Below, piece by piece: positions 10,542-62,278 of a stretch of 64,000 nt of DNA. Source of the DNA: Adineta ricciae (Eukaryota > Rotifera > Eurotatoria > Adinetida > Adinetidae). Position numbers and translations under genes: made by a program. The stretch is taken from positions 1,178,001 to 1,242,000 of the forward strand of contig CAJNOJ010000004.1 of assembly GCA_905250025.1 (NCBI GenBank), read 5' to 3'. The notes under the pieces were generated by a model. The model made no database searches. It was not told where the DNA came from and was given only the letters and a program-made list of their open reading frames with translations. The first letter of the stretch is position 1. The number at the start of each line of letters is the position of its first letter.

Positions 10542-10950
10542 GAGATTTGCAAAAGTGATATGGGAATCAAGGACAAAAGTATTTTTCAATTTTAGCCGTG
10601 ATTTAGTTCGATTTTTTCTTGTTGTGTTGTATTCGGTTTCTTTTATCTCAAATAAAAAAAAACTTTCGAAGTTAGATGCACCGCTGATTTCTGATTGATA
10701 TCAAGAACCAATGGCAAAACAATGTTTATTTTGTAGGAGACGGCCATCTTTCCAACTTTACTATTTAAAAAGTAAACAGAACAGAATTGGACAATATTGA
10801 TTACTTGATTGATAGAAAAAGCAAATAGTATAAAAAGAATTCTGAAAGTTAGTGATAAGCTTACACATTGTTGAAGTATTTATAACGAAAGGTAAGTACA
10901 TGTAGTTTGTTCTCTATTGTGTGCAGGATGATCATTTTAATCGAATAGAT
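10542..10950 (+). other. Intergenic region with probable leader intron of the ART-TPR gene
   Basis: The 3' flank of PSMA4 contains an AAATAAAAA-type polyadenylation signal near 10651. Towards the next gene, GGTAAGTACATG at about 10890 and a TGTGCAG ending about 10926 would define a 37-bp leader intron, short for this genome. The open frame continues upstream of the first in-frame ATG (10951) to a GTG, which I did not use as start. Confidence 0.4.
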
Positions 10951-13900
10951 ATGCTGAGTAAAAGTCGCTCGAAGTTTAGTATTATATCATTACCTCCAAA
11001 CGATGATGATGATGATCTAACGTCACAACAGGCAAGCATTATTAACAAACAAAATAACTTTACACATGGTGATACTAATGATATTTTCACTAAGTTGCAA
11101 GCCGAACATAGTTTACATTGGAAAATCGATAGTTTTATTGCACAAAACATTAGCGTTATTTGGTTGAATTCAAATGCCGAGTATTCACATTCAGGATTAG
11201 AAATCAATGATACAGTCGAAAGGCTTCGTGATATTGCCGACTCATTCCATATATTTACAGATATTGACGAATGCGTTGATTTTATGACTGATATTATCGA
11301 TGAGGAAATATTTCTAATCATGTCCAATCATCAGGTACAGCAATTGCTTTCCCTGGTAGAAAACGTTCCTCAACTTGTAGCAATTTATATTTTCAATCAT
11401 CATCAAACACAGAACGATCAACAAATAAACAACCATAGCAAAGTGCACGGAGCATACACTGATTTCTTTGCCATGATCGATACATTGAAGCAAGATGCAT
11501 GTCGTCGACAAGTTGATTCAACACCCTTTAGTATTGTACCGACCACATCCACTCCTAATCTCGACCAATTAGATCAAACATTCATGTACACCCAGTTACT
11601 TAAAGAAACCATTCTCGAACTCGAACATGATCACAATGCTCGACAAGCCTTTACAGACTTCTGTCTTCAACATCTCCAAGAGTACAACCTACGAAAACAG
11701 CCACTTGTTCAGTTTCAAAAGTTCTATGATCGACATTCACCCATCTGGTGGTACACAAAAGAGACATTTGTTTATATTACACTAAACAACGCTTTGCGTA
11801 CCCAGGATACCGAAATGTTAATTAAGATGGGCTTCTTTCTTCGCGATTTGCATGAAGAAATCAAACAAAATTACCAAGAAACATCACATTTGACGAAGAT
11901 GATTGTTTATCGGGGACAAGGAATGAAAAGTGCTGATATCGATCAAATACGACATGGTAAGGGTGGTCTGCTTGCATTCAATTGCTTCTTATCCACAAGC
12001 AAGGACCGAGAAGTTTCATATACATATGCGGATAGTGCTCGTCAAAATATTGAGCAACATGGAATTTTATTTCGAATGCAAATTGATCCATCCGTGTCGT
12101 CTACACCGTATGTCTCTATAAATGGGGTAAGCCAATTTGGACTTGAAGACGAAATCTTGTTCTCGATGCACACTGTCTTTCGCATAAATGAAATAACTGA
12201 AATCGATGATCGTCTTTGGGAAGTAAATTTGATTTTGACGAATGACGATGATCCAGAGTTGAAACGCTTGACCGATTATTTGCGAAATGAAATAGGAGTG
12301 GTGGGTGGATGGAATCAGATGGGTATGTTGATGTGCAGAATGGGTAAATTTGACAAAGCAATCGAAATATTTACGATGTCATTAGATAAAAAGCTGAATG
12401 ATGACATGGACATAAATAGAATTCTTCAGACTTGTGTAAATTTGCAAATTAGCGAAGCGCATCAATCAGTGGGGAATTATTCGAAATCGCTCTCATATCT
12501 TGAAGAAGAATTAGAAAATTACCGTAATCTGCTTCCACCTGATCATTTATTAGTTGCTATGATTAATTACTTTATTGGTAGGATCTATTGCTTTATGAAT
12601 AAGCTCAGAGAAGCGTTGCTGTATTTTGAGAAAGCACTTCCGGCGTTTCAAAAGCATCTACCACTTATACATCAACCGCTGGCTACCACCTACATCTATA
12701 TTGGCGCCGTTCATCATAGTACAGGTGACATTGAAATGGCATTATCATACTATAAGAAAGCACTTGATCTACAAACAACATACTTGCCACTTAATCATCC
12801 AGATTTGGCTACGGTCTACATCAGTATTAGTATGCCATATAGCTCTATAGGTAATCATAACGTGGCATTATCTTACGCCACGAAGGGAACTGAAATGCTG
12901 GAGAAGTCACTTCCATCAGATCATCCACATCTGGCCATGGGTTACTTCTGTCTAGGATCTATTTATCAATCATCAGGTGATTATTCAACAAGTCTCTTAC
13001 ACTTCGAAAAAGCTCTTGAAATTCAAAATAAATCTCAGCCCCAAACTCACCCAGATATATGTAGGACTCATATATGTATTTCTATGACGAAGCAGTTGAC
13101 TGGCAATATACCACTTTCGTTTTCACATCTCGAAAAAGCGCTCGAAATGCGGTCACAGTTCATGTCGAATGAGCAACCAGTATTACAGGCTACTTCCCAT
13201 GATACTGCTAAACTCAAAGAAAATAACGAATGTTTTAAGAGTGCCGTCGGTCGTCTGAAGAATATTTTCGAAAATCCTCGGGAGCCGTTGCCACCTGACC
13301 AGGTAACATCAACTGAATACGATCAACTAAATACTGATCCAAAAAAGACGATCGACAACTGGTTGGCAGCATTCTCCGATATGGAACGCGGATTGCAGCT
13401 TGGGAAAGAGTTACCATTACCAAGCTTTTCGCCGCTTCTCAATTCAAATGTAGATCAAAATAGTCGTTATAAAATGATTGACTGTTTACAAAGTTACTGC
13501 CTCAATATGAAAAATACATTTAAAAGCTATCAACGTTCGTCTACAACAAACGAGTCAGTATTATCATGCGACAATGAGAACGACAGTGAAACAGAATCGT
13601 CTCGCGACAGTCTTCTTATTTCTATGTCGTATCTTGCTGAAACTCTAGAACTTCTTCTAAAATGTGGCCCGTCTAACGGTTCGTTGGTCGCCACTGATTA
13701 CATTCATCTCGGAGTAATGTTTGTTGACATGGAAGAATATGAAACGGCATTGATGTACCTGGACAGAGCACTAGAAGTTATACGCAATTCATTTACCAAT
13801 AGTCATCTACTATTAGCAAAAGCTCATGCTTGGAAAGCTAAAGCACTATTTGGTCTCGAACAATTTAAAGAAGCGTGTGAACACGCACAGCGTTTCATTA

Positions 13901-13992
13901 GTATTACACACTCTTTATCAGATAAAGAGCAAAAAGAATTAATGGAACTGAAAAATGAACTTGACCCATGGCAACAAATGTTATCACAGTGA
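10951..13992 (+). CDS. ADP-ribosyltransferase (ART) fused to tetratricopeptide repeats
   Basis: Single uninterrupted coding exon of 1013 codons. Residues about 45-170 form an unassigned alpha/beta-looking region (ISVIWLNSNAEY, FTDIDECVDFMTDI, EEIFLIMSN, QLVAIYIF), followed by a helical linker ending in SPIWWYTKETFVYITLNNAL. Residues about 315-430 are an arginine-type ADP-ribosyltransferase fold with the R-S-E triad: Arg321 in VYRGQG, Ser348 in FLSTS and the ExE pair Glu399/Glu401 in FGLEDEILFS. Residues about 440-780 hold kinesin-light-chain-like TPRs (for example ALSYYKKALDLQTTYLPLNHPDLATVY), and another TPR pair sits at the C-terminus. Such enzymes transfer ADP-ribose from NAD+ to protein arginines; the target is unknown. 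No signal peptide or membrane helix, so it is probably cytosolic. The architecture is familiar from bdelloid genomes, where it is strongly expanded. Lack of introns sets it apart from its neighbours and fits a transferred or retrocopied origin. Confidence 0.88.
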   Translation: MLSKSRSKFSIISLPPNDDDDDLTSQQASIINKQNNFTHGDTNDIFTKLQAEHSLHWKIDSFIAQNISVIWLNSNAEYSHSGLEINDTVERLRDIADSFHIFTDIDECVDFMTDIIDEEIFLIMSNHQVQQLLSLVENVPQLVAIYIFNHHQTQNDQQINNHSKVHGAYTDFFAMIDTLKQDACRRQVDSTPFSIVPTTSTPNLDQLDQTFMYTQLLKETILELEHDHNARQAFTDFCLQHLQEYNLRKQPLVQFQKFYDRHSPIWWYTKETFVYITLNNALRTQDTEMLIKMGFFLRDLHEEIKQNYQETSHLTKMIVYRGQGMKSADIDQIRHGKGGLLAFNCFLSTSKDREVSYTYADSARQNIEQHGILFRMQIDPSVSSTPYVSINGVSQFGLEDEILFSMHTVFRINEITEIDDRLWEVNLILTNDDDPELKRLTDYLRNEIGVVGGWNQMGMLMCRMGKFDKAIEIFTMSLDKKLNDDMDINRILQTCVNLQISEAHQSVGNYSKSLSYLEEELENYRNLLPPDHLLVAMINYFIGRIYCFMNKLREALLYFEKALPAFQKHLPLIHQPLATTYIYIGAVHHSTGDIEMALSYYKKALDLQTTYLPLNHPDLATVYISISMPYSSIGNHNVALSYATKGTEMLEKSLPSDHPHLAMGYFCLGSIYQSSGDYSTSLLHFEKALEIQNKSQPQTHPDICRTHICISMTKQLTGNIPLSFSHLEKALEMRSQFMSNEQPVLQATSHDTAKLKENNECFKSAVGRLKNIFENPREPLPPDQVTSTEYDQLNTDPKKTIDNWLAAFSDMERGLQLGKELPLPSFSPLLNSNVDQNSRYKMIDCLQSYCLNMKNTFKSYQRSSTTNESVLSCDNENDSETESSRDSLLISMSYLAETLELLLKCGPSNGSLVATDYIHLGVMFVDMEEYETALMYLDRALEVIRNSFTNSHLLLAKAHAWKAKALFGLEQFKEACEHAQRFISITHSLSDKEQKELMELKNELDPWQQMLSQ

Positions 13993-14322: not shown

Positions 14323-16831
14323 TTAATGATTTGACACAGGCTCATAACCATCAATAGCTAGCGTAAAATCCGCTTGTCCACTAGTTAATGTTCGTAATGT
14401 CGAACTATAACCGATTAATTCTGCTAGCGGTGTTCGGCTTATTATTGTACTCATCGATTCTTGTAATCCGTTGCCAGTTCCTTGTTGTACATCAATGATC
14501 TGACTATGTCGTCTGGCTAGATCTTCTAGAACAGGTTGTGTACGATCAGCTGCACAGACCAGCTAGAATTGGTAAATACTAAAGCATGAAAATATAGCAG
14601 AGAAATGGTTACATACCTCAACGCGCATCATCGGTTGAAGAAGAATGCACTCGGCGTGACGAAGACATGCACGAATACAATCAGATGCAGCTGCCGAATA
14701 TAATGCTGGTGATATCGATCCAGTTAACTGAATGTCATGTAGTTTAACTTGAACATTGATAACTTCAGCACCTTTGACACATCCTATACAAAAACTTGAT
14801 CTATGGTACGACGTTTCGAAGGTAATGCTACCTGATGATAATGCAAGACGAACTCCGTGATTGATTGCGTCTAAAACAAATGAAAGCTGTTGATATACAG
14901 ACATCAATGGAGAAAATATGCTATCTACCGAGATGATCTTTTCTTAAATGTTCAAAAATTTGTTCTTCCGTCCGAACAAGTTTCACTTCTGAAAACGATA
15001 CGATCGTCTTATCTTCTACAACAATAGGATCTATCGACATCGTAATCGAAATAGTTGCATGTCGTTCGTTGATTGTTGAATTCCAAACAATCGTCTGTTG
15101 ATTGGATTTTCGCGGTGTTTCACGATAATTCACATTCAATGGGCCAAGATATGTTTCCAAACCGTATTCACGTTTTAATCGATCACGAATGATATCGATA
15201 TGTAATTCACCCATACCTAGGAGTATCGTCTGACCTGTTTGCTCATCAACACGAACACGCAATGATGGATCTTCACGTTTAATATTTTTCAAAGCAATAT
15301 CGAGCTGTTTTTGACCACTTTCAGAATAAGTTTCAATGGTACAGAAGAAAACTGGCGTAGGTGCTTCTAAACCAGGATCAGGTAGAAAAGTATATTGTTG
15401 TTTTAGATCGTGTAAATGACTAGTAAGATTTGGTTTCTTGTTGGCAACAAGTATGTCACCGCTTGACGCCTATATATGAACAGATAATGAAATAAGGAAT
15501 TAATTGTAGATCGACATACTTCTTTAAATCCGCTGAGAACAGCAATTGATCCTGCTCGAATCTCGTCGACATCTTCCATATTGTCAGCAAACGGTAGAAA
15601 CACTTTATTGACCTGCTCTTTGTCATTCGTTCGTGCATTCGTCAATCCCATCCGTCGTTTTACCGAGCCAGCATAGATGCGCGCGAATGATAACGGTTGC
15701 TTTTGTCGATCATGAATGGTTTTGAATATGTACATTAACGTACCTACATTTGTTGCTGATGTTCCTGGAATGACTCTCGCAGTTGGAAGATAGTTCACAA
15801 TAGCGTCGAGTAAAGTTTGGACACCGAGATTTTTCAAAGAACTGCCGACGAGAACAGGTACATAACGTTGATCGTTTACCATCAGACGACATATTGCTTC
15901 TGTTAATTGGTTGGATGAAATTGGTTTATCATTAAATAGTAAAAGTTCAGCTATTTTATCATCAATATCAGCGAGTTTTTCGATTAATTTTGCTCGATCC
16001 TTCGTAAGAAGGTCAGATAAAGCGGAGTTCGATCTTTTATCCGAAGAGATGATTGTTTCATTCAATAGATCAAGAAAACCAGTGAATTGTTTGCCATATC
16101 CAAGAGGTGTATGAAGAAGTAACGGTTCTATAGCAAATTTTTGTCTAATCGATTCCAGACACATCGATAGATTTGCGGTTGGTTTGTCCATTTTATTGAT
16201 GTAGATTATCCGTGGAATGTGATAGCGATTAGCTTGTCTCCAGACTGTCAATGACTGAGTTTCAACACCAGCAGATGCATCGAGGATGGTTACTGCTCCA
16301 TCGAGAACTCGTAATGATCGTTCAACTTCAATGGTGAAGTCCACATGTCCTGTTTGGAAAGAAAACACATCATGTCTTTCCTTCTGTTTTCTTTCTATAA
16401 CTTACCTTTACAGACAAAACATACCGGGTGTATCAATCAGATTGAGACGATGTTTATTCCATGGAATTGTAATCGCTGCAGACGTTATTGTGATACCGCG
16501 TTCACGTTCTTGTTCCATGTAGTCCATAGTTGTATTTCCATCGTCAACGTTACCCATCGATCGAATGAATCCAGCATAATATAACATTCGCTCTACTGTT
16601 GTTGTCTTCCCTTTGGTGAAAGAAGAGAAACACAGAGATTGTTTCGTCTTGGAATCGAAATAGACGATTCTTAGATTTACCTGCATCGATATGTGCAATG
16701 ATTCCCACATTACGAATTCGTTGTGGATCAGTGATTTGCACGGCATTTTGAAATACTTGTAAACGAGTTGTACTCGCATACCGACAAATGAAGCGTAATG
16801 GGAATATTGTTCGATATTGAAATAAGCCCAT
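14323..16831 (-). CDS. GFM2: Mitochondrial ribosome-releasing factor 2 / elongation factor G2
   Basis: EF-G-type translational GTPase that, with mitochondrial RRF, splits the mitoribosome after termination. The N-terminus ([20 protein letters not shown]) is basic and hydroxylated, a plausible mitochondrial presequence. GTPase motifs are all present: [12 protein letters not shown] (P-loop, interrupted by an intron), the switch region [29 protein letters not shown] and GSSLKN. Downstream are domain II, then [39 protein letters not shown] and [14 protein letters not shown], characteristic of GFM2 rather than GFM1, and the domain IV/V end [18 protein letters not shown]. About six exons. The HP1-like gene ends 113 bp upstream on the same strand. 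Confidence 0.93.
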
Positions 16832-42008: not shown

Positions 42009-42558
42009 TGCGCAAAACCAAATGGACACGTATCTAATCTTTAATCTCTTCTCTTTTCTCTCTTGTGATCAAACTTATTTTTTACATTTGTAACAAGTCG
42101 ATCCATTTTCGTTATGATTTTATCATCTATAAATACACGTTTTCAGAAGGCCATAATGACGTCATGGTAACATAACTGTATTTGTTATCATGTTCCACAC
42201 TGTTATCTGCACCTGTGCTAGTTTCTGAGCGATAATAAAAGGAGAACAAAAGCACGAAGGTTTAAAAGTTAGTACTGACATTATCAAGGTTATACACATA
42301 TACATTGGATTTGAAATTGGTATCATATAAGAGAAAAAAAACGAAGTAGATTCTCGAAGGGTGTGGCATATTAGATAAAAAGAAAGCCAGAATAAATATG
42401 TTAGATAGTTACATTTCAGCATAGTATCACGTCAATACTCATTTCGATCGAATCGTAAAGATATTTGCTCTTAGAAGTCGAAGAAAAAAACACAGCCAGC
42501 GACACATAGAGTGGGAGAATATTATACATACTATCCAGTGATATATAAACGAAGTCAA

Positions 42559-42693
42559 TATTTGTAGATGTGATACTAGTCGAAGTGGACTAGAACGAAG
42601 AAAAATAACGTATGTACAGGTGGACGATAGCTTTTTTCTCACAACGTCCTTTCGTTTGTGTATATATAGAATAAGAGAAACATGCGTGTATTA
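42559..42693 (+). repeat. 135-bp direct repeat, copy 1
   Basis: Runs from TATTTGTAGATG to GCGTGTATTA and ends directly at the N. It is followed by 17 further bases and then copy 2. The two copies differ at one visible position (GTTTGTGTATATA versus GTTTGTATATATA). Confidence 0.9.
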
Positions 42694-42710
42694 NCCGGAT
42701 GCTGATTCAT

Positions 42711-42845
42711 TATTTGTAGATGTGATACTAGTCGAAGTGGACTAGAACGAAGAAAAATAACGTATGTACAGGTGGACGATAGCTTTTTTCTCACAACGTC
42801 CTTTCGTTTGTATATATATAGAATAAGAGAAACATGCGTGTATTA
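42711..42845 (+). repeat. 135-bp direct repeat, copy 2
   Basis: Same sequence as 42559-42693 with one substitution seen, offset by 152 bp. Only this copy is followed by the sequence that continues into the downstream gene, which suggests an assembly join. Confidence 0.9.
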
Positions 42846-42899
42846 CTATACCATTCTTTGTCTATTCTAAGTCATACATACTTCTTTCTGTAGTTGTAA

Positions 42900-49634: not shown

Positions 49635-52600
49635 ATGGATTTACCATCCATCAATCTAATCACAGCAGCACCACTCAATGATGGTTTGTATCGATTGAAA
49701 ATCATTTATTCGCTTATAGTACAATATTTGAATTTAGTGGTACGTGAATTACCTGTATTGTCTTTGGCTAATCATGGAATGGAACGCATTGTTGATAGTA
49801 GCACAGCTGAATACACATCCATGTTACTTAACTGCCGTGACGGTGCATTAGCACAACAACTTGCGCATAAACTTTCGATTGTTGCCAATACGACTACATC
49901 GATGTAAATGAATAAATCCGTAATTGATCGAAAACGAAATCTTTCGTTCGTTTTTTAGCACACTTCGTCAACCGCCAGATCCCGCAGCAACACCTCTGCA
50001 TGGATTACCTCCACTGTTGCAAACCACTGCACAATACAATCCAAATATTTTCAGTGGTATGCTGCACTTTTGATTACTCATCGGTGTTCATTTTTTTCTT
50101 TTCATTAACAGCTTGTCTTCAGCCACCAGCAGCATTTGCACGTTCTTTCCAGTAAGTAATATTTGATCTAATTTCATTTGTATAGAAAACATTTTGATTT
50201 AGATCACCAACAAATTCCTATTCCCACTATCCCAATGCACATTATCCGCCACAAATCAGTCCAAACAATAATAATTACAATCAACCAACAACAGCGTCAG
50301 CATCGCGTAAGTATTTCCTAGAGAAAAAAGAGCAATTAAGCAGGCATTGGTAATCTATAGCTTATTCTTCACGCGGTTTCATGTCGACCACAACATCTAT
50401 GCCAATTCAATCACCTGATCCTCAATCAATGCTTTATCCTCAGAATCCATCCATCGCGCCACACCGTCCAACTCGACCGACTGCTGTAGTACCGCCTTTG
50501 CCAAAAGATCCTGTTATATCCTCACCCATGGGTTCGATCCCGAGCACGTCAGCTCCGATGACACCATCCCCATCGTTATTGAACTATCAACAAGTTTCGC
50601 CGCAAAAACCACCAAACTATCAAAAACATGTAAGTTTCGTTGTCTCGAAGAGGTTTGAAATAATTAGACTGTTCAGCGAATAAACCGTTGAATGACATGC
50701 AGACATTTGAACCGTTAGAACTTTCATCGACATGTGCTTTCCTCTTCTTGTTTTTGAATCTCTTCCATAGTATACAGACCGTTAAGAAAGGAAAAAAAAT
50801 GTTTCTTTTGAATAGTCTGATACATCACAATCACATGAAATCACGAACAAAAGTTTACAACCAGTAACGAATATCAATGACGCGATGACTAAGAAATCAA
50901 GTATGAAGACGTCTAAATTATGAAAATCATTAATGATGAAATTGTCTGTTTTAATTTAGCTCCAGTTCTACAACCAGCTCCATCACATCAGCAAGTGGAA
51001 AAGATACGAATCAATCTTCAAAAATTGCAACCAGATGAACTGGGTAAATACCTAATTTCAATCGAAAGCAGAAGTATCATCTCAGCGCTTTCATTCTAGC
51101 TTCCATTCGAAACTCTTCACCTTCGAAACAACGTTCTATGAAACCAAATATCTCGCAACAGTTAGATCATTTACCATCAGACTTTACTCCCGATCTAATC
51201 AAAGAACTACTTCAAGATGGTTATTCTCTTGATAGCAATGCAGGTGAACGTTTACTACGTCAACGTCGTGCAGCCATCAGCAATGCAGCGTCCCTGAACA
51301 ATTCGCCGAAGAAAAAACGGATTCGGAGTTTATCAACTGAAGACAATGAAGACGATAATGATAACAATGACGATGAGGACGCCAACGATCTCGATAACGA
51401 TGAAGAACAACAACCATTGAAAAAACGTATCCGTCGAGCCAACGATAATCCACTTGCTAATAATTCCACGATCGATGTTATGAGTGCATTGAATAAGAAA
51501 ACTCGAGATCGTTTAGCACGCAAAGCTTTAGACATCGATGCTGATCCGCAAGAAAATACCTCCTATCAGCGTTTCATTCAATTGTTAGACATATTCAATG
51601 ATGATTATGATCGTCATCACGAACAATTAGAACAAACACCTGATGATCACTATCTAGATTTATTATTGTCCGATCATACATTGGATGAAATGGCTATTCT
51701 ATCGGAAAAATTGAAATTATCAACGTATATGTCGCGTATAGATCGTATGAAATTAAAGCGTCTGTTGGAAATTTTATCTTTACGAATTAAACAAGGCGTT
51801 GAAATGAGTCCGAATCTTAAGCATGATATTAATGATGAACAAACGGACGAAGAAGAAGAACGAATGTGGAGAGATCTAGTATTCGAACGGTTAACCATGT
51901 GTGCCAACGCTTGTGAAATCAGTTTAAATATAATGACAACAGATAATATGCCAAAAGAAATTCTCATTGAACATGTCATTGAACACACATCTTTATTTAT
52001 CAAAGCGCAATTGGCTAAGACAATTTTTCCTGAATATGATCCATTGTATCGCAATGATAATCATTCGAAAGGTATGAAGAAATCATCTGAATGAAGAGAA
52101 AAGAAATCATTTGTTATATTATTGCTTCTAGATCCATCATTGACGAAACAAAAACGTTCGAAAGTAACCGGAACGAAATGCAAACAAGTGCAAATCCTTT
52201 ATAATAAGATAGTATCGCTCTTCCAGGGAATTACAGATTTAATGCCACTAGGCAAATATCCAGATACGATTATTCTCGCTGTAAGTTCGTTCCTCTTTCC
52301 TTTCAATGCGTGAAACTTTTTTTTTATATAGATTTCCTCATTTACTGTCAGTTGTATTTATGTTGAAAATATCGTCGATCTTCAAGCACATTCATTACGC
52401 ATTCTCACTGAATTGTTTTCTCGTTATGAACATCATCGCGATTCTATACTTGAAGATCTTCTACTCTCAGTTGCTCGTTTGCCCACAAGTAAAAAGAGTC
52501 TTCGTTGTTATCGTTTACCGTCCGGTGAATCAATCCAAATGTTCACCGCATTAATCATGCATTTAGTTCATGCACCTGTTACATTAGCATCCACGATGAA

Positions 52601-55600
52601 TGTTAGCATAACAGATTCCACGAATGAAATTCATCTGTTGAACACTTACTCAACCGCACAGAATTTAGCATTTAAATTTTTAACTTTATTTTTCCGATCA
52701 TGTGGAACGAAACAAGGCGAAGATGATTACCGAATTGTATTTGAAAATTTCCTAGCTGATTTACTTGTCACTGCTAATCGACCTGAATGGCCTGCATCGG
52801 AAATTCTTCTAACGTTATTATCTCGAATCTTAATGACGAACTTTTCCAACCATTCGCTGCCAATTAACACACGCTTGCAATCATTAGATTATCTAGGTTC
52901 AGTGGCCGCACAATTGCGCAAAGACACAATCGATAACGACGTGTTGAACTCGAAAGAAAACCAAGAAAAACTCGATGCTATTGTTTATAAAACTTTAACA
53001 AGCATTGAGTTAGACGAAGATATGATGGAAGTTTATAAAACGGATCCATTACGTTATCATCGCAGTTTAGTTATTTATCTCAATGAACTGAGTTTAAGTG
53101 ATCAAACGAGTCATTATGCGAAAATGTTTCATGTTGGTCAATGGTTACGCGATTTGAATCTAACAGTAGAACGATTAACTCAAACATTAACACGACGAAT
53201 GAAGCCTGGACAAGCTGAATTAGTCAATGAAGATGATGTTGATGAATCAATGAATACAAATTCGAAAGCTTCGATTTCAGTCGAAGATGAAATTGATTTG
53301 AAAAAGAACGAGAAAGTGACCATTTTAAAAATGTTAGCATTACCGGAAACAGCTCGAAAGCAACAACGATATTCACTCGACATTGAATACGATGATATTT
53401 GTCTACTAATGCGTTATTTAACATCCAATCGACCATTTTTGAAAACCTTCGATGTCTATTTGAAACAATTAGCTGCCATATTTCAATCTGAAGCTGGTAC
53501 AAACATACGCAGCAAAGCAATGAAATGTCTATGTACAGTGGTCGAAGCTGATCCATCTGTTCTTTCACGCAACGATATCAAATCATGTGTGAAAGTTGGT
53601 CTAACAGATAAAAGCATTAGTGTACGTGAAGCAGCCATTGATCTTATTGGACGATATATTGTACAAAAACAAGAATTAATTCTGCAATATTATGATGTTC
53701 TCTGTGAACGAAGTATCGATACGGGTGTCAGTGTGCGAAAGCGTGTCGTGAAAATCTTTCGCGATGTTTGTTTGACTCAACCGAATTTCATTCGAATACC
53801 GGATATATGTTCGCGTTTGTTACGACGTATTCATGACGAAGAATCCATACGTAAATTGGTTCTTGAAACTTTTCAACAATTATGGTTTTCTCCCACACGC
53901 ACTCAACTGGATGTTAAACAACGTGTTCAAACGATCATTGATGTATTAGTTGATGCACAGAAGCAGAATTATACCTGGTTGGAAAATTTAGTGAAAGAAT
54001 TTCTTCAAACAAATGATAAACAATCAAGTGACGATAAGAAGAAAGTGCGAGAACAACGCAAAGATGTCCTAAAAGCTATTCAAGATATTATCAATGAATT
54101 AGTTGAATCGATTTTGAAAGTCGAATCAGCCAATGATCAAGTTCGTGATTATGATTTTCTATACCTTTGCAAATATTTTCCATTTCTCTAGAACTCATCG
54201 AATAAAATGGTTGCCATATTCATCGCTTTGTATGCCCTAGGCAAAGCTAAACCCGATCATGTTCTTCCACATGTTTCAACTATCGTTGAATATTTGAATA
54301 TCAAATGTACATCATATAATGATAATATTATTGTACAATATGTTGCAAAAATTCTTGAATTTACCGTTCCGTTGATGAAATCGGCGTCATCAAGTATTAT
54401 TTATTCGTTGGAAGGTAGTTTAACCAAACTCCTTCTAGTTAGTGGTCAATTAGTTATTCATTCAAGCATTGCTTGTCTCTCCGCAGTTATACGCTTGTCA
54501 AAAAATACTCAACTTGTCAGAGATGTTTTCGTTCGATATCATTGTAAGTTGCCATTCAGCAAATGAACAGAAATGAACCTTTGAATATGTTCGTTTAGCT
54601 ATTGTTATCCAATGTCAGCAAAAGATTCTGGAAAAACCTGATGAAGAATTCAAGGGAAGTGCACAACTGGCTCGATCAATTTACATCCTAGGTGTTCTAT
54701 GTAAATATTTCGATGTAGAAAAAAGCGAATTTGATGATCTCGAGGTACTTCGAACACATCGATCAATCTTTTGTCACACTACTCCCTATTTTCGTTTTAG
54801 TTTTCTGTTGACGACCTTTTTCAGTTATTTATATTTTTTATTCAACGACGTGAGTCTGTAGTCAAACTGAAATCTCTCGTCGGTCTTGGATTCTTTTTGC
54901 AACGTTATGGACAATACCTCGTGCGCGACACAGTTCGTCAACTATACCACAATTATCTGTTAGATCGTCGACCTACAGCTGCTCAGTTACGTTGTCAAGT
55001 ACTCATCAATCTCGAAGAATATTTCCGCGATTGTATACGTCGTATGGCTGAACAAGACATTGACTATCTCCATTTGACACAGACAGCAAATCCAACACCA
55101 AATGAAGATGAAAATAGCAATGATGGTACTGGTCCAACAGGTGTCAATCTCAAAGATACAACGGATGTTCATTCGGAGATGGCTAGTTCAATTGCTCAAT
55201 GTTACTTACGTGTTGTCTTAGATACTTATTTAAGTGAAGATGAAACAATTCGTCAATGTGTTCGAAAGGTCGTGACATGCATATTGGAACAAGGCCTCGT
55301 ACATCCTGTTCAGTTTATTCCATATCTCATCGCCATGACTACGGACCGCGATACAAACATTCAACAGAGCGCTGAACAAAATCTACAAGATTTGGATAAG
55401 ACAAATCCAGGCATCATCCAAACAAAAGTCATGCATGGATTGAAAATGAGTTACCAGTTACAAAAATTACTGGCTGTGACTAGTCAAAATAAGACCAATA
55501 CTCAACAAACTCATGTGCCAAATGAGATTATTAGAGGTAAGAAGAGAAAAATCTCTACAATTGATACTCATCAGCTGTTTTTAGGCATGACCAAAGTAGC

Positions 55601-56203
55601 AGTAACTCCATCGAATAGTCAACAATCACCTTATTGTTCAGTCAATCATTTTCTTTATTCACTAATTCGTTCTTCACGAGTTTATCGTCGCGCTTTGATA
55701 TCTCAATTGCTGAAAATGTTCGATAACGATACAACGACGACAACATCGACGACGCTCGGAGAACAACTATTTGTTGCTGATAATCTAGCTTACTTTCCCT
55801 ATCAAGTTCAAGATGAACCATTGTATCTGATCGAACAGATTGATCTTACTGTCAGCGTTAGTGGCTCGACACAATTACAACAATTTCGTGATTTACTGAA
55901 GCAATACTTAGATTACACGGATGACGATGAAGGCATTGATCTAAGTCGATTAGAAGAAAAATTTCTTCAGTTATCCGATGCCGTCGTCGACGAACTAAAT
56001 CAATGTTTACGTACATCAAAATCAACAATGTTACTATTGATATTAAAATCTTATCTCAAAGATGTTTATGGTTTGAATGACACAAAAATCACTGAGTATG
56101 ATCACACCGAATCGAGTAAAATAACCGATCGGCCAATAATGTCGAGAAAGATGAATGTTAAATTCGAACCGAAGCTCATACTTGATACAATAAAACCGTC
56201 AGC
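49635..56203 (+). CDS. NIPBL: Nipped-B-like cohesin loader (NIPBL/SCC2), 5' part up to an assembly gap
   Basis: Subunit that loads cohesin on chromatin and drives loop extrusion. The N-terminus MDLPSINLITAAPL with LLNCRDGALAQQLAHKLS matches the NIPBL start, which binds MAU2. A disordered Pro/Ser/Gln region follows, with short exons to about 51100. An acidic and basic stretch (DDNDNNDDEDANDLDN, KKRIRRAN) precedes the HEAT-repeat solenoid: LTDKSISVREAAIDLIGRYI, LCERSIDTGVSVRKRVVKIF and RLLRRIHDEESIRKLVLETF are near-diagnostic. The last exon before the gap, with HEAT repeats to KLILDTIKPSA, stops at 29 Ns. The introns at about 54142-54191 and 55537-55584 (48 bp, stop-free in this copy) interrupt the frame. 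The 3' 2501 bp (53703-56203) recur after the gap. Confidence 0.9.
53703..56203 (+). repeat. 2501-bp near-identical duplicate, copy 1 (inside NIPBL)
   Basis: Begins TGTGAACGAAGTATCGATAC and ends ACCGTCAGC directly at the N run. Copy 2 (56233-58733) starts directly after the Ns with the same words. The offset is 2530 bp at both ends, so the copies have equal length (no net indel) and differ by scattered, mostly synonymous or intronic substitutions. Confidence 0.95.
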
Positions 56204-56232
56204 NNNNNNNNNNNNNNNNNNNNNNNNNNNNN
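56204..56232. other. Assembly gap (29 Ns)
   Basis: A run of 29 ambiguous bases inside NIPBL. It is flanked on both sides by the 2501-bp duplicated segment, so it marks a contig join rather than unread unique sequence. Confidence 0.97.
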
Positions 56233-58733
56233 TGTGAACGAAGTATCGATACGGGTGTCAGTGTGCGAAAGCGTGTCGTGAAAATCTTTCGCGATGTTTG
56301 TTTGACTCAACCGAATTTCATTCGAATACCGGATATATGTTCGCGTTTGTTACGACGTATTCATGACGAAGAATCCATACGTAAATTGGTTCTTGAGACC
56401 TTTCAACAGTTATGGTTTTCTCCCACACGCACGCAACTGGATGTTAAACACCGTGTTCAAACGATCATTGATGTGCTAGTTGATGCACAGAAGCAGAATT
56501 ATACTTGGTTGGAAAATTTAGTGAAAGAATTTCTTCAAACAAATGATAAACAATCCAGTGACGATAAGAAGAAAGTTCGTGAACAGCGCAAAGATGTCCT
56601 AAAAGCTATTCAAGATATTATCAATGAATTAGTTGAATCGATTCTGAAAGTCGAATCAGCCAATGATCAAGTTCGTGACTTTAATTTTCTATTGCATCGC
56701 AAATATTTTCTATTTCTCTAGAACTCATCGAATAAAATGGTTGCCATATTCATCGCTTTGTATGCCCTAGGCAAAGCTAAACCCGATCATGTTCTTCCAC
56801 ATGTTTCAACTATCGTTGAATATTTAAATATCAAATGTACATCATATAATGATAATATTATTGTACAATATGTTGCAAAAATTCTTGAATTTACCGTTCC
56901 GTTGATGAAATCGGCGTCATCAAGTATTATTTATTCGTTGGAAGGTAGTTTAACCAAACTCCTTCTAGTTAGTGGTCAATTAGTTATTCATTCAAGCATT
57001 GCTTGTCTCTCGGCGGTTATACGCTTGTCAAAAAATACTCAACTTGTCAGAGATGTTTTCGTTCGATATCATTGTAAGTTGCCATTCAGCAAATGTACAG
57101 AAATGAATTTTTGAATATCTTCGTTTAGCTATTGTTATTCAATGTCAGCAAAAGATCCTGGAAAAACCTGATGAAGAATTCAAGGGAAGTGCACAGCTGG
57201 CTCGATCAATTTACATCCTAGGTGTTCTATGTAAATATTTCGATGTAGAAAAAAGTGAATTTGATGATCTCGAGGTAATTCGAACACATCAATCAATCTT
57301 TTGTCACACTGATCCCTGTTTTCGTTTTAGTTTTCTGTCGACGATCTTTTTCAGTTATTTATATTTTTTATTCAACGACGTGAGTCCGTAGTCAAACTGA
57401 AATCTCTCGTCGGTCTTGGATTCTTTTTGCAACGTTATGGACAATACCTCGTGCGCGACACAGTTCGTCAACTATATCACAATTATCTGTTAGATCGTCG
57501 ACCTACTGCTGCTCAGTTACGCTGTCAAGTGCTCATCAATCTCGAAGAATATTTCCGCGATTGTATACGTCGTATGGCTGAACAAGATATCGACTATCTC
57601 CATTTGACACAGACAGCAAATCCAACAACAAATGAAGATGAAAATAGCAATGATGGCACTGGTCCAACAGGTGTCAATCTCAAAGATACAACGGATGTTC
57701 ATTCAGAGATGGCTAGTTCAATTGCTCAATGTTACTTACGCGTTGTGTTAGATACTTATTTAAGTGAAGATGAAACGATTCGTCAATGTGTTCGAAAGGT
57801 CGTGACGTGCATATTGGAACAAGGCCTCGTACATCCTGTTCAGTTTATTCCATATCTGATCGCCATGACCACGGACCGCGATATAAACATTCAACAGAGC
57901 GCCGAACAAAATCTACAAGATTTGGATAAGACAAATCCAGGCATCATCCAAACAAAAGTCATGCATGGATTGAAAATGAGTTACCAGTTACAAAAATTAC
58001 TGGCTGTGACTAGTCAAAACAAGACCAATACTCAACAAACTCATGTGCCAAATGAAATTATTAGAGGTAGGAAGAGGAAAATCTCTACAATTGATACTCA
58101 TTAGCTGTTTTTAGGCATGACCAAAGTAGCAGTAACCCCAACGAATAGTCAACAATCACCTTATTGTTCAGTCAATCATTTTCTTTATTCGCTTATTCGC
58201 TCTTCGCGTGTTTATCGTCGCGCTTTGATATCTCAATTGCTGAAAATGTTCGATAACGATACAACGACGACGACATCGACGACGCTTGGAGAACAACTAT
58301 TTGTTGCTGATAACCTAGCTTACTTTCCCTATCAAGTTCAAGATGAACCATTGTATCTGATCGAACAGATTGATCTTACCGTCAGCGTTAGTGGCTCGAC
58401 ACAATTACAACAATTTCGTGATTTACTGAAACAATATTTAGATTACACGGATGACGATGAAGGCATTGATCTGAGTCGATTAGAAGAAAAATTTCTTCAG
58501 TTATCCGATGCCGTCGTCGACGAGCTAAATCAATGTTTACGTACATCAAAATCAACAATGTTACTATTGATATTAAAATCTTACCTCAAAGATGTTTATG
58601 GTTTGAATGACACAAAAATCACTGAGTATGATCACACCGAATCGAGTAAAATAACCGATCGGCCAATAATGTCGAGAAAGATGAATGTTAAATTCGAACC
58701 GAAGCTCATACTTGATACAATAAAACCGTCAGC
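56233..58733 (+). repeat. 2501-bp near-identical duplicate, copy 2 (inside NIPBL)
   Basis: Second copy of 53703-56203. Coding changes seen are few (for example VKQRVQ to VKHRVQ, ANPTPNED to ANPTTNED, TDRDTNIQ to TDRDINIQ), while the intron corresponding to about 54142-54191 is clearly more diverged. A CAG-to-TAG change at 58102-58104 falls inside the predicted 48-bp intron. Confidence 0.95.
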
Positions 58734-58995
58734 ACACATGGATGGTCATCAAAGACGAAAACAAATTCTAAGAGATTTTCAAGATTTTAAACGTTATCTT
58801 CTTGCATTTGACAACGATGCCGAGGAGAATGTTAAATCTATATCCGAGTTGTTACCTTCTGCAAGCATGTCAACAACAGGAGGAACACCAAGTTTAACTG
58901 GAAAAAGCAAGAAAAAATCAGGAGGAACAACAAAACGACGGAAAGTTCTGATCGAATCAGACGATGACAGTGCCGATGGCGATTTTCAGCCATAA
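56233..58995 (+). CDS. NIPBL: Nipped-B-like cohesin loader, 3' part after the gap
   Basis: Continuation of the NIPBL gene on the other side of the gap. It restarts at CERSIDTGVSVRKRV, which is already present in the 5' part, and runs through the HEAT-repeat C-terminal half. Exon joins recoverable by eye include Q/NSSNKMVAIFIALYALGKAK and IIRG/MTKVAVTPTNS. Unlike copy 1 it carries the real 3' end: HMDGHQRRKQILRDFQDFKR, LLPSASMSTTGGTP and the basic/acidic tail KKSGGTTKRRKVLIESDDDS ending GDFQP. The most economical reading is a single gene spanning 49635-58995 with one haplotype represented twice between 53703 and 58733. Confidence 0.88.
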
Positions 58996-59324
58996 ATCTC
59001 TCTTTTCTCTTTTGTTTTATATAATATATATTATGTATGTTTTTTTATATGAGGACCTTTCTCTCGTGTTCATGTCTACTACAATGTACAAAATAACCTG
59101 TGTGTGTTCTTGAAAAATTTTCTTTCTTGTTTTCATTTCCTATCTAACTAATTCTGTACAGCGAAGCAGAACAACATTTTTTTAAAAACTTCAATGTATA
59201 ACGTTGTTATTCTAAGAATAGTGATGTTCATACAGATTTTTTTCACTAGTACGATCTCAGTTGGTTTTGCTATAAAAAAAAGGTAAATAAAATAAAAGTC
59301 AAGTGTTGTCTTAGGAAAAATAAA
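58996..59324. other. Convergent intergenic region
   Basis: About 330 bp between NIPBL (plus) and a minus-strand gene. A/T-rich, with a TATATAATATATATTATG segment near 59019-59036 and AATAAAATAAAAG near 59287, likely polyadenylation signal for NIPBL. Nothing else seen. Confidence 0.5.
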
Positions 59325-60563
59325 TCATTCATTATCTATCGAAGAGTTCAGCTGATCGTCTGTCGAATCGATGATGTCCATGAGATCGATGAATGCGGAT
59401 GGCGTATCACCACTTCCGTTATTTATGTTTACATAGTGTTCGACAATATTTAGCGTTGTTTGAGTGATCTGATCCGTACTAGTTTGTTGAACTGATTGAT
59501 CGAGAATGTTTACATCTTGGTCAGATGAATTTGATGAGAAGATCATTGAATAATTTTCATTGTACGTCGATCTTTGGGATAAGGAATTCGTTTGTACTTC
59601 GATTTTGTCGAGAACTGAATCGATATTATCGAGAATCGAATGAATTTGCGTCACCATCATGGATTGAATCGGCAATGACGATTCATCGATACGAAATGTC
59701 ATAGACGATTGACGAGTAATTGGCTGGTCAATTGGTGAAGGTGGCGGGGACTTGATTTGAAGTGACGTATAGCTTTGTGAAGTGAACGCTGATATTCTTG
59801 TCGGATGAAAATGTAAATTGGTACTGATAGAATGAAATTTCTTCCGTTCGTTCATATCTTCATCAATCAGCCGTTTGTTTGATTGATGTTCATTCAAAGA
59901 TGGCGATGAATTACCACTACCGAAGACACGATAGACGAATTTTTTGGCTTTTTCAAAGACACCCGAAGTACTTGATTCAGCCTTATTTGACATCGGTAGA
60001 GAGTTTGAAGGATAGTAATGGAGAAAGCAAACTTTTGATATAGTTGCGCAAGAGGTTATGTCAATATGATCAACCAGTGGAGTGGATTTCTTTCCATGAA
60101 AATGTTCTCGAAATTTATTATCCAAGATATTGAGCAGATCTTTGTTTGTTTTCAATGAACTACATGGACAAATATGAGTTTCGATAATCAGAAGGTGATT
60201 TACTCATGAGTTATCAATGTTTCAATCAAATGTAAGCGATATTGATCGGTAGGAAATAGTTCAAGAAGTATTGGAAAACTTTCCGTAGTAATGAATGGGT
60301 GAATCTAATAGAAAAATCAGTTGCAATTTTTCGGATAGAACGCAAAACTCTTATACGAATGGAATCAATTGATATAATGCTTGTAGACGATAATTTTCGC
60401 TATTAAAAATCGAAAAAAAGAATTGTAAAGTGTATGGTGTTAACTGCAAGAGATGAAGATGTGATTTTAAGGTATTCAGCATTTGTAATCGATCGATGTC
60501 GTTATCGAGTCGATGCAGTTCTCGACATAGAATATCAATTGGTGAATGAATCTTGTTTGACAT
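59325..60563 (-). CDS. DUF4476-like domain protein with disordered C-terminal half
   Basis: Three exons, joined at LIPF/IHPFITTES and ITHD/SLKTNKDLL. The N-terminal ~130 residues are helical with repeating units (DIDRLQMLNTLKSHLHLLQL, TPYTLQFFFSIFNSENYRLQ, ALYQLIPFV, SFPILLELFPTDQYRLHLIE). This pattern of short helix pairs with an F-x-x-x-x-Y-R-L core resembles the DUF4476 domain of PROSER1-type proteins. The rest is Ser-rich and low complexity, with KKFVYRVFGSGNSSP, a proline cluster (IKSPPPSPIDQP) and a helical stretch (MVTQIHSILDNIDSVLDKIE). No catalytic residues or membrane segments. Function unknown; the family link is tentative. Confidence 0.65.
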
Positions 60564-60850
60564 TTTGGAAATTCTTAAGTCAAATAAAAAGAAACATGAA
60601 AAACTGACTTTGATAAACGTTTTAACAACGAATTGAGTACAAAAAATGCGCGTGAAAGAAAACTAGTTCGTGATCTTGCTAGAAGGCAGATTGTTAAACG
60701 ACGGAAAAAATTCTTTTTTTCTCAGAGATTACATCACTGAATATTTCTTTATTAAGGAAAATATTCATGTTGGGAATTGTCGCTTCATTATCAACAAACA
60801 TGTTCAGCATCAATTCGTATAAAAACACGCAATAAACAACTTGTATGTGC
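60564..60850. other. Intergenic region
   Basis: About 290 bp between two minus-strand genes; it holds the 3' region of the EGF/transmembrane gene and the promoter of the DUF4476-like gene. A minus-strand frame at 60694-60936 is an out-of-frame shadow of the neighbouring exon. Confidence 0.45.
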
Positions 60851-61345
60851 TTAAGATGGTTCTTCGTATGTATGATAACTAATGGTTGAAACTGAGGCCC
60901 GCCTAGATAGCGCAATATCATACAGAGGAGATACAATGATGGGAGAAGGTACTTGAGATAAAGGCGGTAACCGAGACGGCAACGGAGGTGGTGGCACTGT
61001 TACTGTTGAAGTGGCGGATGAGAGTGATGCTGAATAGGCTAATAGTTTCTTTTTCACACGCTTTTTCCAAATAAAGAATATGACCAAGCCAACAACTAGA
61101 GTTAATAGAGCTCCACCAAGTCCACTAGCAACCACAATACCAATGTTGATTTGACTCGACGACGTTGTATCCGTGATTGATGTGGCTATCAAATGCAAGG
61201 CAGAAGAAAGAACTATTTCCTACTTGAATATCCTTTACATACTAGAACAGGTTGGTCCACTATAACCAGAAAAACACGCACAGGTCTGATTAACTGTACA
61301 TGTGCCTGTGTGCTTTGCTACGCAGACGTCACATGCAAGTTGATC
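60851..61345 (-). CDS. Type I membrane protein with EGF-like domain (3' exons; 5' end unresolved)
   Basis: Two exons are clear. The first ends in an EGF-like module, LACDVCVAKHTGTCTVNQTC with ACFSGYSGPTCS; the second, after an intron of about 57 bp, gives a Ser/Thr-rich stalk, a membrane helix (IGIVVASGLGGALLTLVVGL, VIFFIW), a basic stop-transfer (KKRVKKK), and a cytosolic tail with polyproline (TVPPPPLPSRLPPL) and a C-terminal YHTYEEPS. The polyproline may bind SH3/EVH1 domains. An exon reading LVSLKFTSDE may precede the EGF exon via an intron of about 85 bp. No start codon or signal peptide was found, so the gene is listed as partial. Adhesion or receptor role inferred only from architecture. 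Confidence 0.65.
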
Positions 61346-62205
61346 TACATCGAAAGATAAACATAACACTTAAAATCTAAACGAATCGTTAAAAAAATCC
61401 GGCGCAAAGCATGTTTATCTCGATACACACTCGTCACTGGTGAACTTTAGTGAGACTAGTTGCGTGGAAATCGTTGCCTATCAGATGATAAAAACTTCGA
61501 TGTTCTTAGATTTTTTACATACCTGTCATGTGAAGTTCGTCGATGTTAATCGAAAAATAAGATCCTTTTTCTTTTACAAAAATCAATACGCTCTTCGCTT
61601 CGCGACAAGAATTCTTTTTGAAATGTTTTTAATAAGCAAAGTGCAACAAAAGCATTTAAGATTTCAGAACGAACACAGAATAACATTACGATCTGCACAA
61701 AAACAATTGACGAGAGAGAGAGAGAGTCAGAAGAAGAAAGAGAAAGAAATCACTGGATAATCGCGATGCTCACGTAAATCAATCTCGCCATTCAAATGAT
61801 GTATAGAAATTTTCTTTTTTTTCTTTGTTACAAAAGCTTCACCTCAGTCATCGAATGATTGAATGTTAGAAATATTTGTTTACATTTAATAGATTCATTC
61901 CCACTCTGTCTTGGCGGCAACATGAGTTATGATTTTTCGGTTAGGCAAATAGGCGTTACATTTTCCACTGGAATATCTATTTATTTTGCTATTAAACAAT
62001 CGAATATAAGTACCTCAACGTCAAAAATTCATTTCAAGTTTGTTCCTTTGTGAACAATGTCACGAGAAGAAAGCACCATGGCCTTGTTTTTGCCTGTCGA
62101 AAGTAGAATTCTAGATATACATGGATTTCGTTGTGTCGACATGGACAGGAGAGAACAAAATATGTACGATAAATTCTAACGAGATATAAATTTAAAAAAG
62201 AATGG
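61346..62205. other. Region without a confirmed gene
   Basis: About 860 bp upstream of the EGF/TM exons. It may contain further 5' exons of that gene (a candidate lies near 61428-61474), but I could not join them with confidence. A GA dinucleotide tract lies at about 61713-61728. The plus-strand open frames here (61440-61760, 61859-62053) show no coding character. Confidence 0.4.
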
Positions 62206-62216
62206 TGCCGTGACCC

Positions 62217-62273
<57 letters not shown>

Positions 62274-62278
62274 CCGGC
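62206..62278 (-). tRNA. tRNA-Phe (anticodon GAA)
   Basis: 73-nt cloverleaf read on the minus strand: acceptor GCCGGGA, D-arm AGCTCAGTTGGGAGAGC, anticodon stem-loop CAGACTGAAGATCTG with GAA, variable loop AGGTC, T-arm CCTGGTTCGATCCCGGG-like, and discriminator A. The D-, anticodon- and T-arms are normal and match metazoan tRNA-Phe. The acceptor stem has one mismatch, G5 opposite A68 (GCCGGGA against TCACGGC). No intron is visible. No CCA is encoded. Confidence 0.93.

Follow-up and report, generated by a model that had tools for sequence, protein, structure and literature searches.

The 2501-bp repeat in a NIPBL/Scc2-like cohesin-loader gene of Adineta ricciae was almost certainly produced during assembly, and a false haplotypic (heterotype) duplication, rather than a real biological feature, best explains the sequence patterns described below. 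The window, i.e., the whole stretch of 64,000 nucleotides analysed (GC content 36.4%), corresponds to positions 1178001–1242000 of contig C4 in an assembly of 130.46 Mb and 1033 contigs. Self-BLAST of window positions 50001–62000 yielded a single repeated pair on the plus strand, 53703–56203 (copy 1; C4:1231703–1234203) and 56233–58733 (copy 2; C4:1234233–1236733). The copies are direct, 2501 bp each and 96.88% identical, with 78 mismatches (57 transitions and 21 transversions) and no gaps. Positions 1–164 and the last 149 positions are identical, and differences are spaced by approximately 32 bp on average. Between the copies lies a run of 29 Ns (56204–56232), flanked on both sides without a single leftover base; the only other N in the window is at position 42694. 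The initial annotation had described an exact duplication at this gap with identical boundaries, and the self-BLAST confirmed it, with an offset of 2530 at both ends. Its reading as a false haplotype duplication was likewise supported, as the repeat stops at the last base before the gap and begins again at the first base after it. Copy 2 is read here as allelic to copy 1.

Self-comparison of 244 kb of C4 showed that the pair in the window is the smaller of two linked repeats. A direct repeat of approximately 72 kb (1086986–1159206 and 1159208–1231524) was recovered in three collinear pieces with 94.0–94.8% identity, the largest gap within them being 14 bp, and substitutions amounted to 4.9% of the ungapped columns. 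Both copies adjoin a single N at 1159207, one from each side. The second copy occupies window positions 1–53524 (+), its partner lying outside the window within C4:1086986–1159206, and it stops 178 bp short of the start of the 2.5-kb repeat. When window positions 51100–53702 were used as a query, the first 2425 bases recurred at C4:1156786–1159206 with 96% identity, ending at the single N. Within the window, copy 1 alone is joined to the 5′ half of the gene, as had been claimed, but this does not hold outside it, where C4:1156786–1159206 supplies a second 5′ part. A piece of an elongation-factor-G-like GTPase gene (15406–16401, minus strand), with GTP_EFTU and EF-G domain 2, was also observed within the 72-kb repeat.

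We infer that C4 was assembled here from three formerly separate contigs, A (to 1159206), B (1159208–1234203; 75 kb) and C (from 1234233), and that B is an allele rather than a paralogue of its neighbours. Copy 1 would then be the 3′ end of B, copy 2 the 5′ end of C, and the 29 Ns the scaffold gap between them. B overlaps A from 1086986 onwards and C as far as 1236733, and the distance from the end of A to the start of C, projected on B, is 178 bp. On this geometry, A and C resemble adjacent segments of a single haplotype, with B as the other haplotype inserted whole between them. The animal would carry two divergent haplotypes in this region, approximately 3–6% apart, with B representing one of them and A plus C the other, or a collapsed path, separated by about 178 bp. 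Contig breaks would have fallen in tracts identical between the haplotypes, and scaffolding would have put the redundant haplotig B, left unremoved, between its two neighbours, with 1 N towards A and 29 Ns towards C as nominal gaps. As a result, B would repeat the last 72 kb of A, and C the last 2.5 kb of B. The exact gap boundaries are predicted by such haplotype overlap without free parameters, and the spacing of 178 bp between the two repeats in B is what a single haplotig spanning two adjacent contigs should give. The 178-bp stretch itself (53525–53702, +), which would represent the real distance from the end of A to the start of C, was found only in B and, in diverged form, on contig C156. 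Only the 2.5-kb repeat is visible within the window because the window takes in the bulk of B and the beginning of C. The initial annotation had proposed two overlapping contigs placed end to end; a haplotypic origin is supported, but with an event some 30 times the size of the one that the annotation could show, and the fuller picture is that of a whole 75-kb haplotig lodged between two pieces of the other haplotype. In SSPACE output, a negative gap appears as a single n. In the available methods text of PMC7943196, no scaffolder is named for A. ricciae.

All three N runs found in a scan of 264 kb (C4, 244 kb; C156, 20 kb) had duplicated flanks, namely those at C4 1159207, 1220694 (window 42694) and 1234204–1234232, although they lie within one 75-kb neighbourhood and are not independent samples of the assembly. 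Around the N at 42694, a direct repeat of 139 bp with 98.6% identity (42555–42693 and 42707–42845, +; together 42555–42845) abuts the N on one side only, with 12 unrepeated bases following the N on the other. This repeat is probably also a false overlap, because a single stretch of contig A (1148313–1148455) matches both sides of the N. Window positions 42555–42846 can also be described as 1.9 copies of a 152-bp unit straddling it. Given this further N run inside B, B itself may be two joined contigs.

Runs identical between the copies were found at four contig ends: 149 bp at the start of B, 121 bp at the end of A, 164 bp at the start of C and 149 bp at the end of B. In the 72-kb alignment, an identical run of 121, 149 or 164 bases or more on a given side occurs at only 1.5, 0.9 and 0.7% of positions, respectively. 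The chance of finding four of four ends in such runs is about 1e-8 as a simple product, a value that treats the ends as independent and takes the alignment of A and B as background for the pair of B and C too. This is the pattern that short-read contigs stopping in haplotype-identical tracts would give. If the 178 bp were also identical between haplotypes, the tract would measure at least 463 bp, compared with a longest run of 421 bp in the 72-kb alignment.

Copy numbers were determined at seven places by searching the assembly. Each of the three queries inside the overlap gave two near-identical full matches, both on C4, and each of the four queries outside it gave one high-identity place (C4 1078001–1080500, 1084000–1086985 and 1252001–1254500, and window 58734–60200), a pattern of two inside and one outside that by design cannot separate a false from a real duplication. 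One 2500-bp query inside the overlap matched C4 at 100% and 93%, with short matches of 39–229 bp at 66–88% on other contigs. Window positions 58734–60200 had no other match at all in the assembly, and the other matches of 1252001–1254500 were on contig C7, at 70–73%. The remaining matches, from the inside and left-flank queries, were on C156 at 71–82%. In the 20 kb of C156 that was read, the gene region occurs once, with its main pieces at 75–78% and one 82-bp piece at 84%. C156 also matches the left flank, 97–107 kb away and in inverted order, and no match on C156 was found for the right flank (window 58734–60200 and C4 1252001–1254500). Bdelloid rotifers are described as degenerate tetraploids (PMC5916493; PMC7943196), and the relation between C4 and C156, judged by these matches, fits that of homoeologues in such a genome. 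The C156 homoeologue additionally carries a GT...AG intron of approximately 50 bp (about 108120–108172) after the codons for CERSIDT, which is absent from the C4 gene (window 53703–53750). The site is located some 22 bp from where copy 2 begins and marks an intron gain or loss between the homoeologues.

The affected gene extends, as scaffolded, from 51048 to 58995 (+), including what is most probably a false internal repeat; its real 5′ end may differ, and its 3′ end (58734–58995, +) is present on contig C only. Its identity as NIPBL/Scc2/Nipped-B is based on two Pfam domains above their cut-offs and on a collinear match to solved NIPBL chains. Cohesin_HEAT (PF12765) scored 38.1 bits (cut-off 21) just upstream of the repeat unit, and Nipped-B_C (PF12830) scored 158.8 bits in copy 1 (cut-off 26.4) and 66.6 bits in the searched part of copy 2. 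Against chain 6wge_E, the open frame 52332–54188 aligned with residues 252–825, copy 1 (54801–56201) with residues 1009–1209, the matching part of copy 2 (57331–58101) with the same residues 1009–1209, and the frame 58105–58992 with residues 1229–1310. Copy 1 had two further matching stretches in 7w1m_E, up to residue 1435. The repeated C-terminal part is presumably built of HEAT repeats. The internal repeat of HEAT units described in the initial annotation is loosely correct, the repeated part lying C-terminal-ward and holding the Nipped-B_C domain.

A gene model of the repeat unit, guided by the C156 homoeologue, placed four introns of 48–56 bp in copy 1 (54141–54191, 54544–54598, 54745–54800 and 55537–55584, +; the first donor is uncertain by a few bases). 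The introns hold 20 of the 78 differences, and the exonic ones comprise 54 synonymous and four amino-acid-changing differences, bearing out the claim that the differences are mostly synonymous or intronic. Values of dS and dN were 0.116 and 0.0022 (dN/dS approximately 0.02), and the exons of both copies are free of stops. An apparent stop in copy 2 (58102–58104), where copy 1 reads through, had been considered as a nonsense change and was rejected: it falls inside a 48-bp GT...AG intron that is present in both copies, and the frame of the C156 homoeologue is interrupted there too. In the gene parts 51156–52091 and 52404–53524, the 72-kb copies gave dS and dN of the same order (0.164 and 0.0043), again without stops. 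Because copy 1 ends two bases into a codon and the first base of copy 2 opens a new one, a direct or a 29-base join shifts the frame. With the 29-N gap as written, the reading frame of copy 1 is thus not continued in copy 2.

These observations bear on the ways in which the scaffold could be correct. A real 72-kb tandem copy at allele-level divergence would then be followed by a second tandem copy in the cohesin-loader gene, which we consider very improbable; it would imply linkage of homologous alleles on a single chromosome in a bdelloid-like animal. Two genuine, adjacent tandem duplications of 72 kb and 2.5 kb would account for the direct orientation, for 2.5-kb copies free of stops and indels and for the failure of the three inside queries to find another long high-identity copy on other contigs, and a real duplication in a collapsed assembly would also give two copies inside and one outside. 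Such events would, however, require every junction to coincide exactly with an assembly gap and the two duplications to end within 178 bp of each other. Both copies of the 2.5-kb repeat are strongly constrained even though their junction, as written, is out of frame, and the homoeologous region that was read has one copy. Moreover, the copies differ by close to the divergence published for A. ricciae homologues (median 4.55%, mode 3.75%; PMC5916493). On this balance, two genuine duplications have only a very slight probability. A real tandem repeat as such had been tried as an explanation and was rejected in view of the boundaries, the frame and the second repeat.

Homologous alleles might instead be truly linked head to tail on one chromosome, as proposed for the 2013 Adineta vaga assembly. 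Homologous blocks on the same scaffold are on record: A. ricciae has two, each of them tandem, and the 2013 A. vaga assembly has 25, of which two are tandem and 23 palindromic (PMC5916493). The same source cautions that scaffold gaps lie within many of the breaks in collinearity, which may be errors of scaffolding. In the present scaffold, the copies of each repeat meet exactly at a gap, and all of B but 178 bp is represented in A and C, leaving true linkage barely credible. Equally far-fetched, in our estimate, is a real duplication specific to one haplotype, with the 2.5-kb repeat present on that haplotype only. An allele-specific tandem duplication is mentioned in PMC9516828, but it would leave unexplained both the 72-kb repeat with the same geometry and the exact abutment on Ns.

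Other features of the window were noted in passing. An open frame of 1028 codons (10906–13992) has matches to ART (34.3 bits) and ADPrib_exo_Tox (28.0 bits), followed by TPR repeats. Proteins combining TPR and ADP-ribosyltransferase domains are common in bdelloids, and this frame fits a bdelloid genome. The only tRNA gene found in the window was a tRNA-Phe (GAA) at 62203–62278 (−). Telomere repeat matches numbered 12 forward and 26 reverse, with 14 and 30 for the control, which, being made by reversal, amounts to the repeat unit itself in rotated form.

If the artefact were kept, the cohesin-loader gene model would contain a false internal repeat and approximately 72 kb of genes would be shown twice. 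Were the genome bdelloid-like, the artefact would also be tallied as one more case of linked homologous blocks, a pattern once taken as evidence of long-term asexuality (PMC5916493). A simple screen is suggested, in which each N run is tested for overlap between its flanks and for a whole contig contained in its two neighbours.

False haplotypic duplication is a known class of error, and the present case seems to be a routine instance of it, an ordinary assembly artefact. According to ‘Widespread false gene gains caused by duplication errors in genome assemblies’ (Genome Biol 2022; PMC9516828), the marks of a false duplication are half read depth, a gap separating the two copies, discordant linked reads and one-copy k-mers. 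In the heterotype duplications and false exon gains described there, as in A. ricciae, allelic copies lie side by side on one scaffold with an assembly gap between them, here of 29 Ns for the 2.5-kb pair and one N for the 72-kb pair, and the difference between copies is at allele level, here 3.1% in the 2.5-kb pair and about 4.9% substitutions in the 72-kb pair. Exons were likewise added to one gene, which in that study was linked to boundaries between homozygous and heterozygous sites. Calls in that study also use half read depth, discordant linked reads and k-mers, whereas ours draws on sequence comparison; in our case, an entire haplotig of 75 kb would be flanked by both of its counterparts, which produces a pair of linked repeats. 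Haplotypic duplications described in other assemblies, including that of Adineta vaga (PMC10548655; PMC8178825), are similar by description in that uncollapsed alleles were taken for paralogues. The linked bdelloid blocks of PMC5916493 share with the present case homologous copies on one scaffold, direct order and a similar divergence, but they were tallied as gene blocks and as a possible architecture, whereas the boundaries found here coincide with scaffold gaps at the level of single bases.
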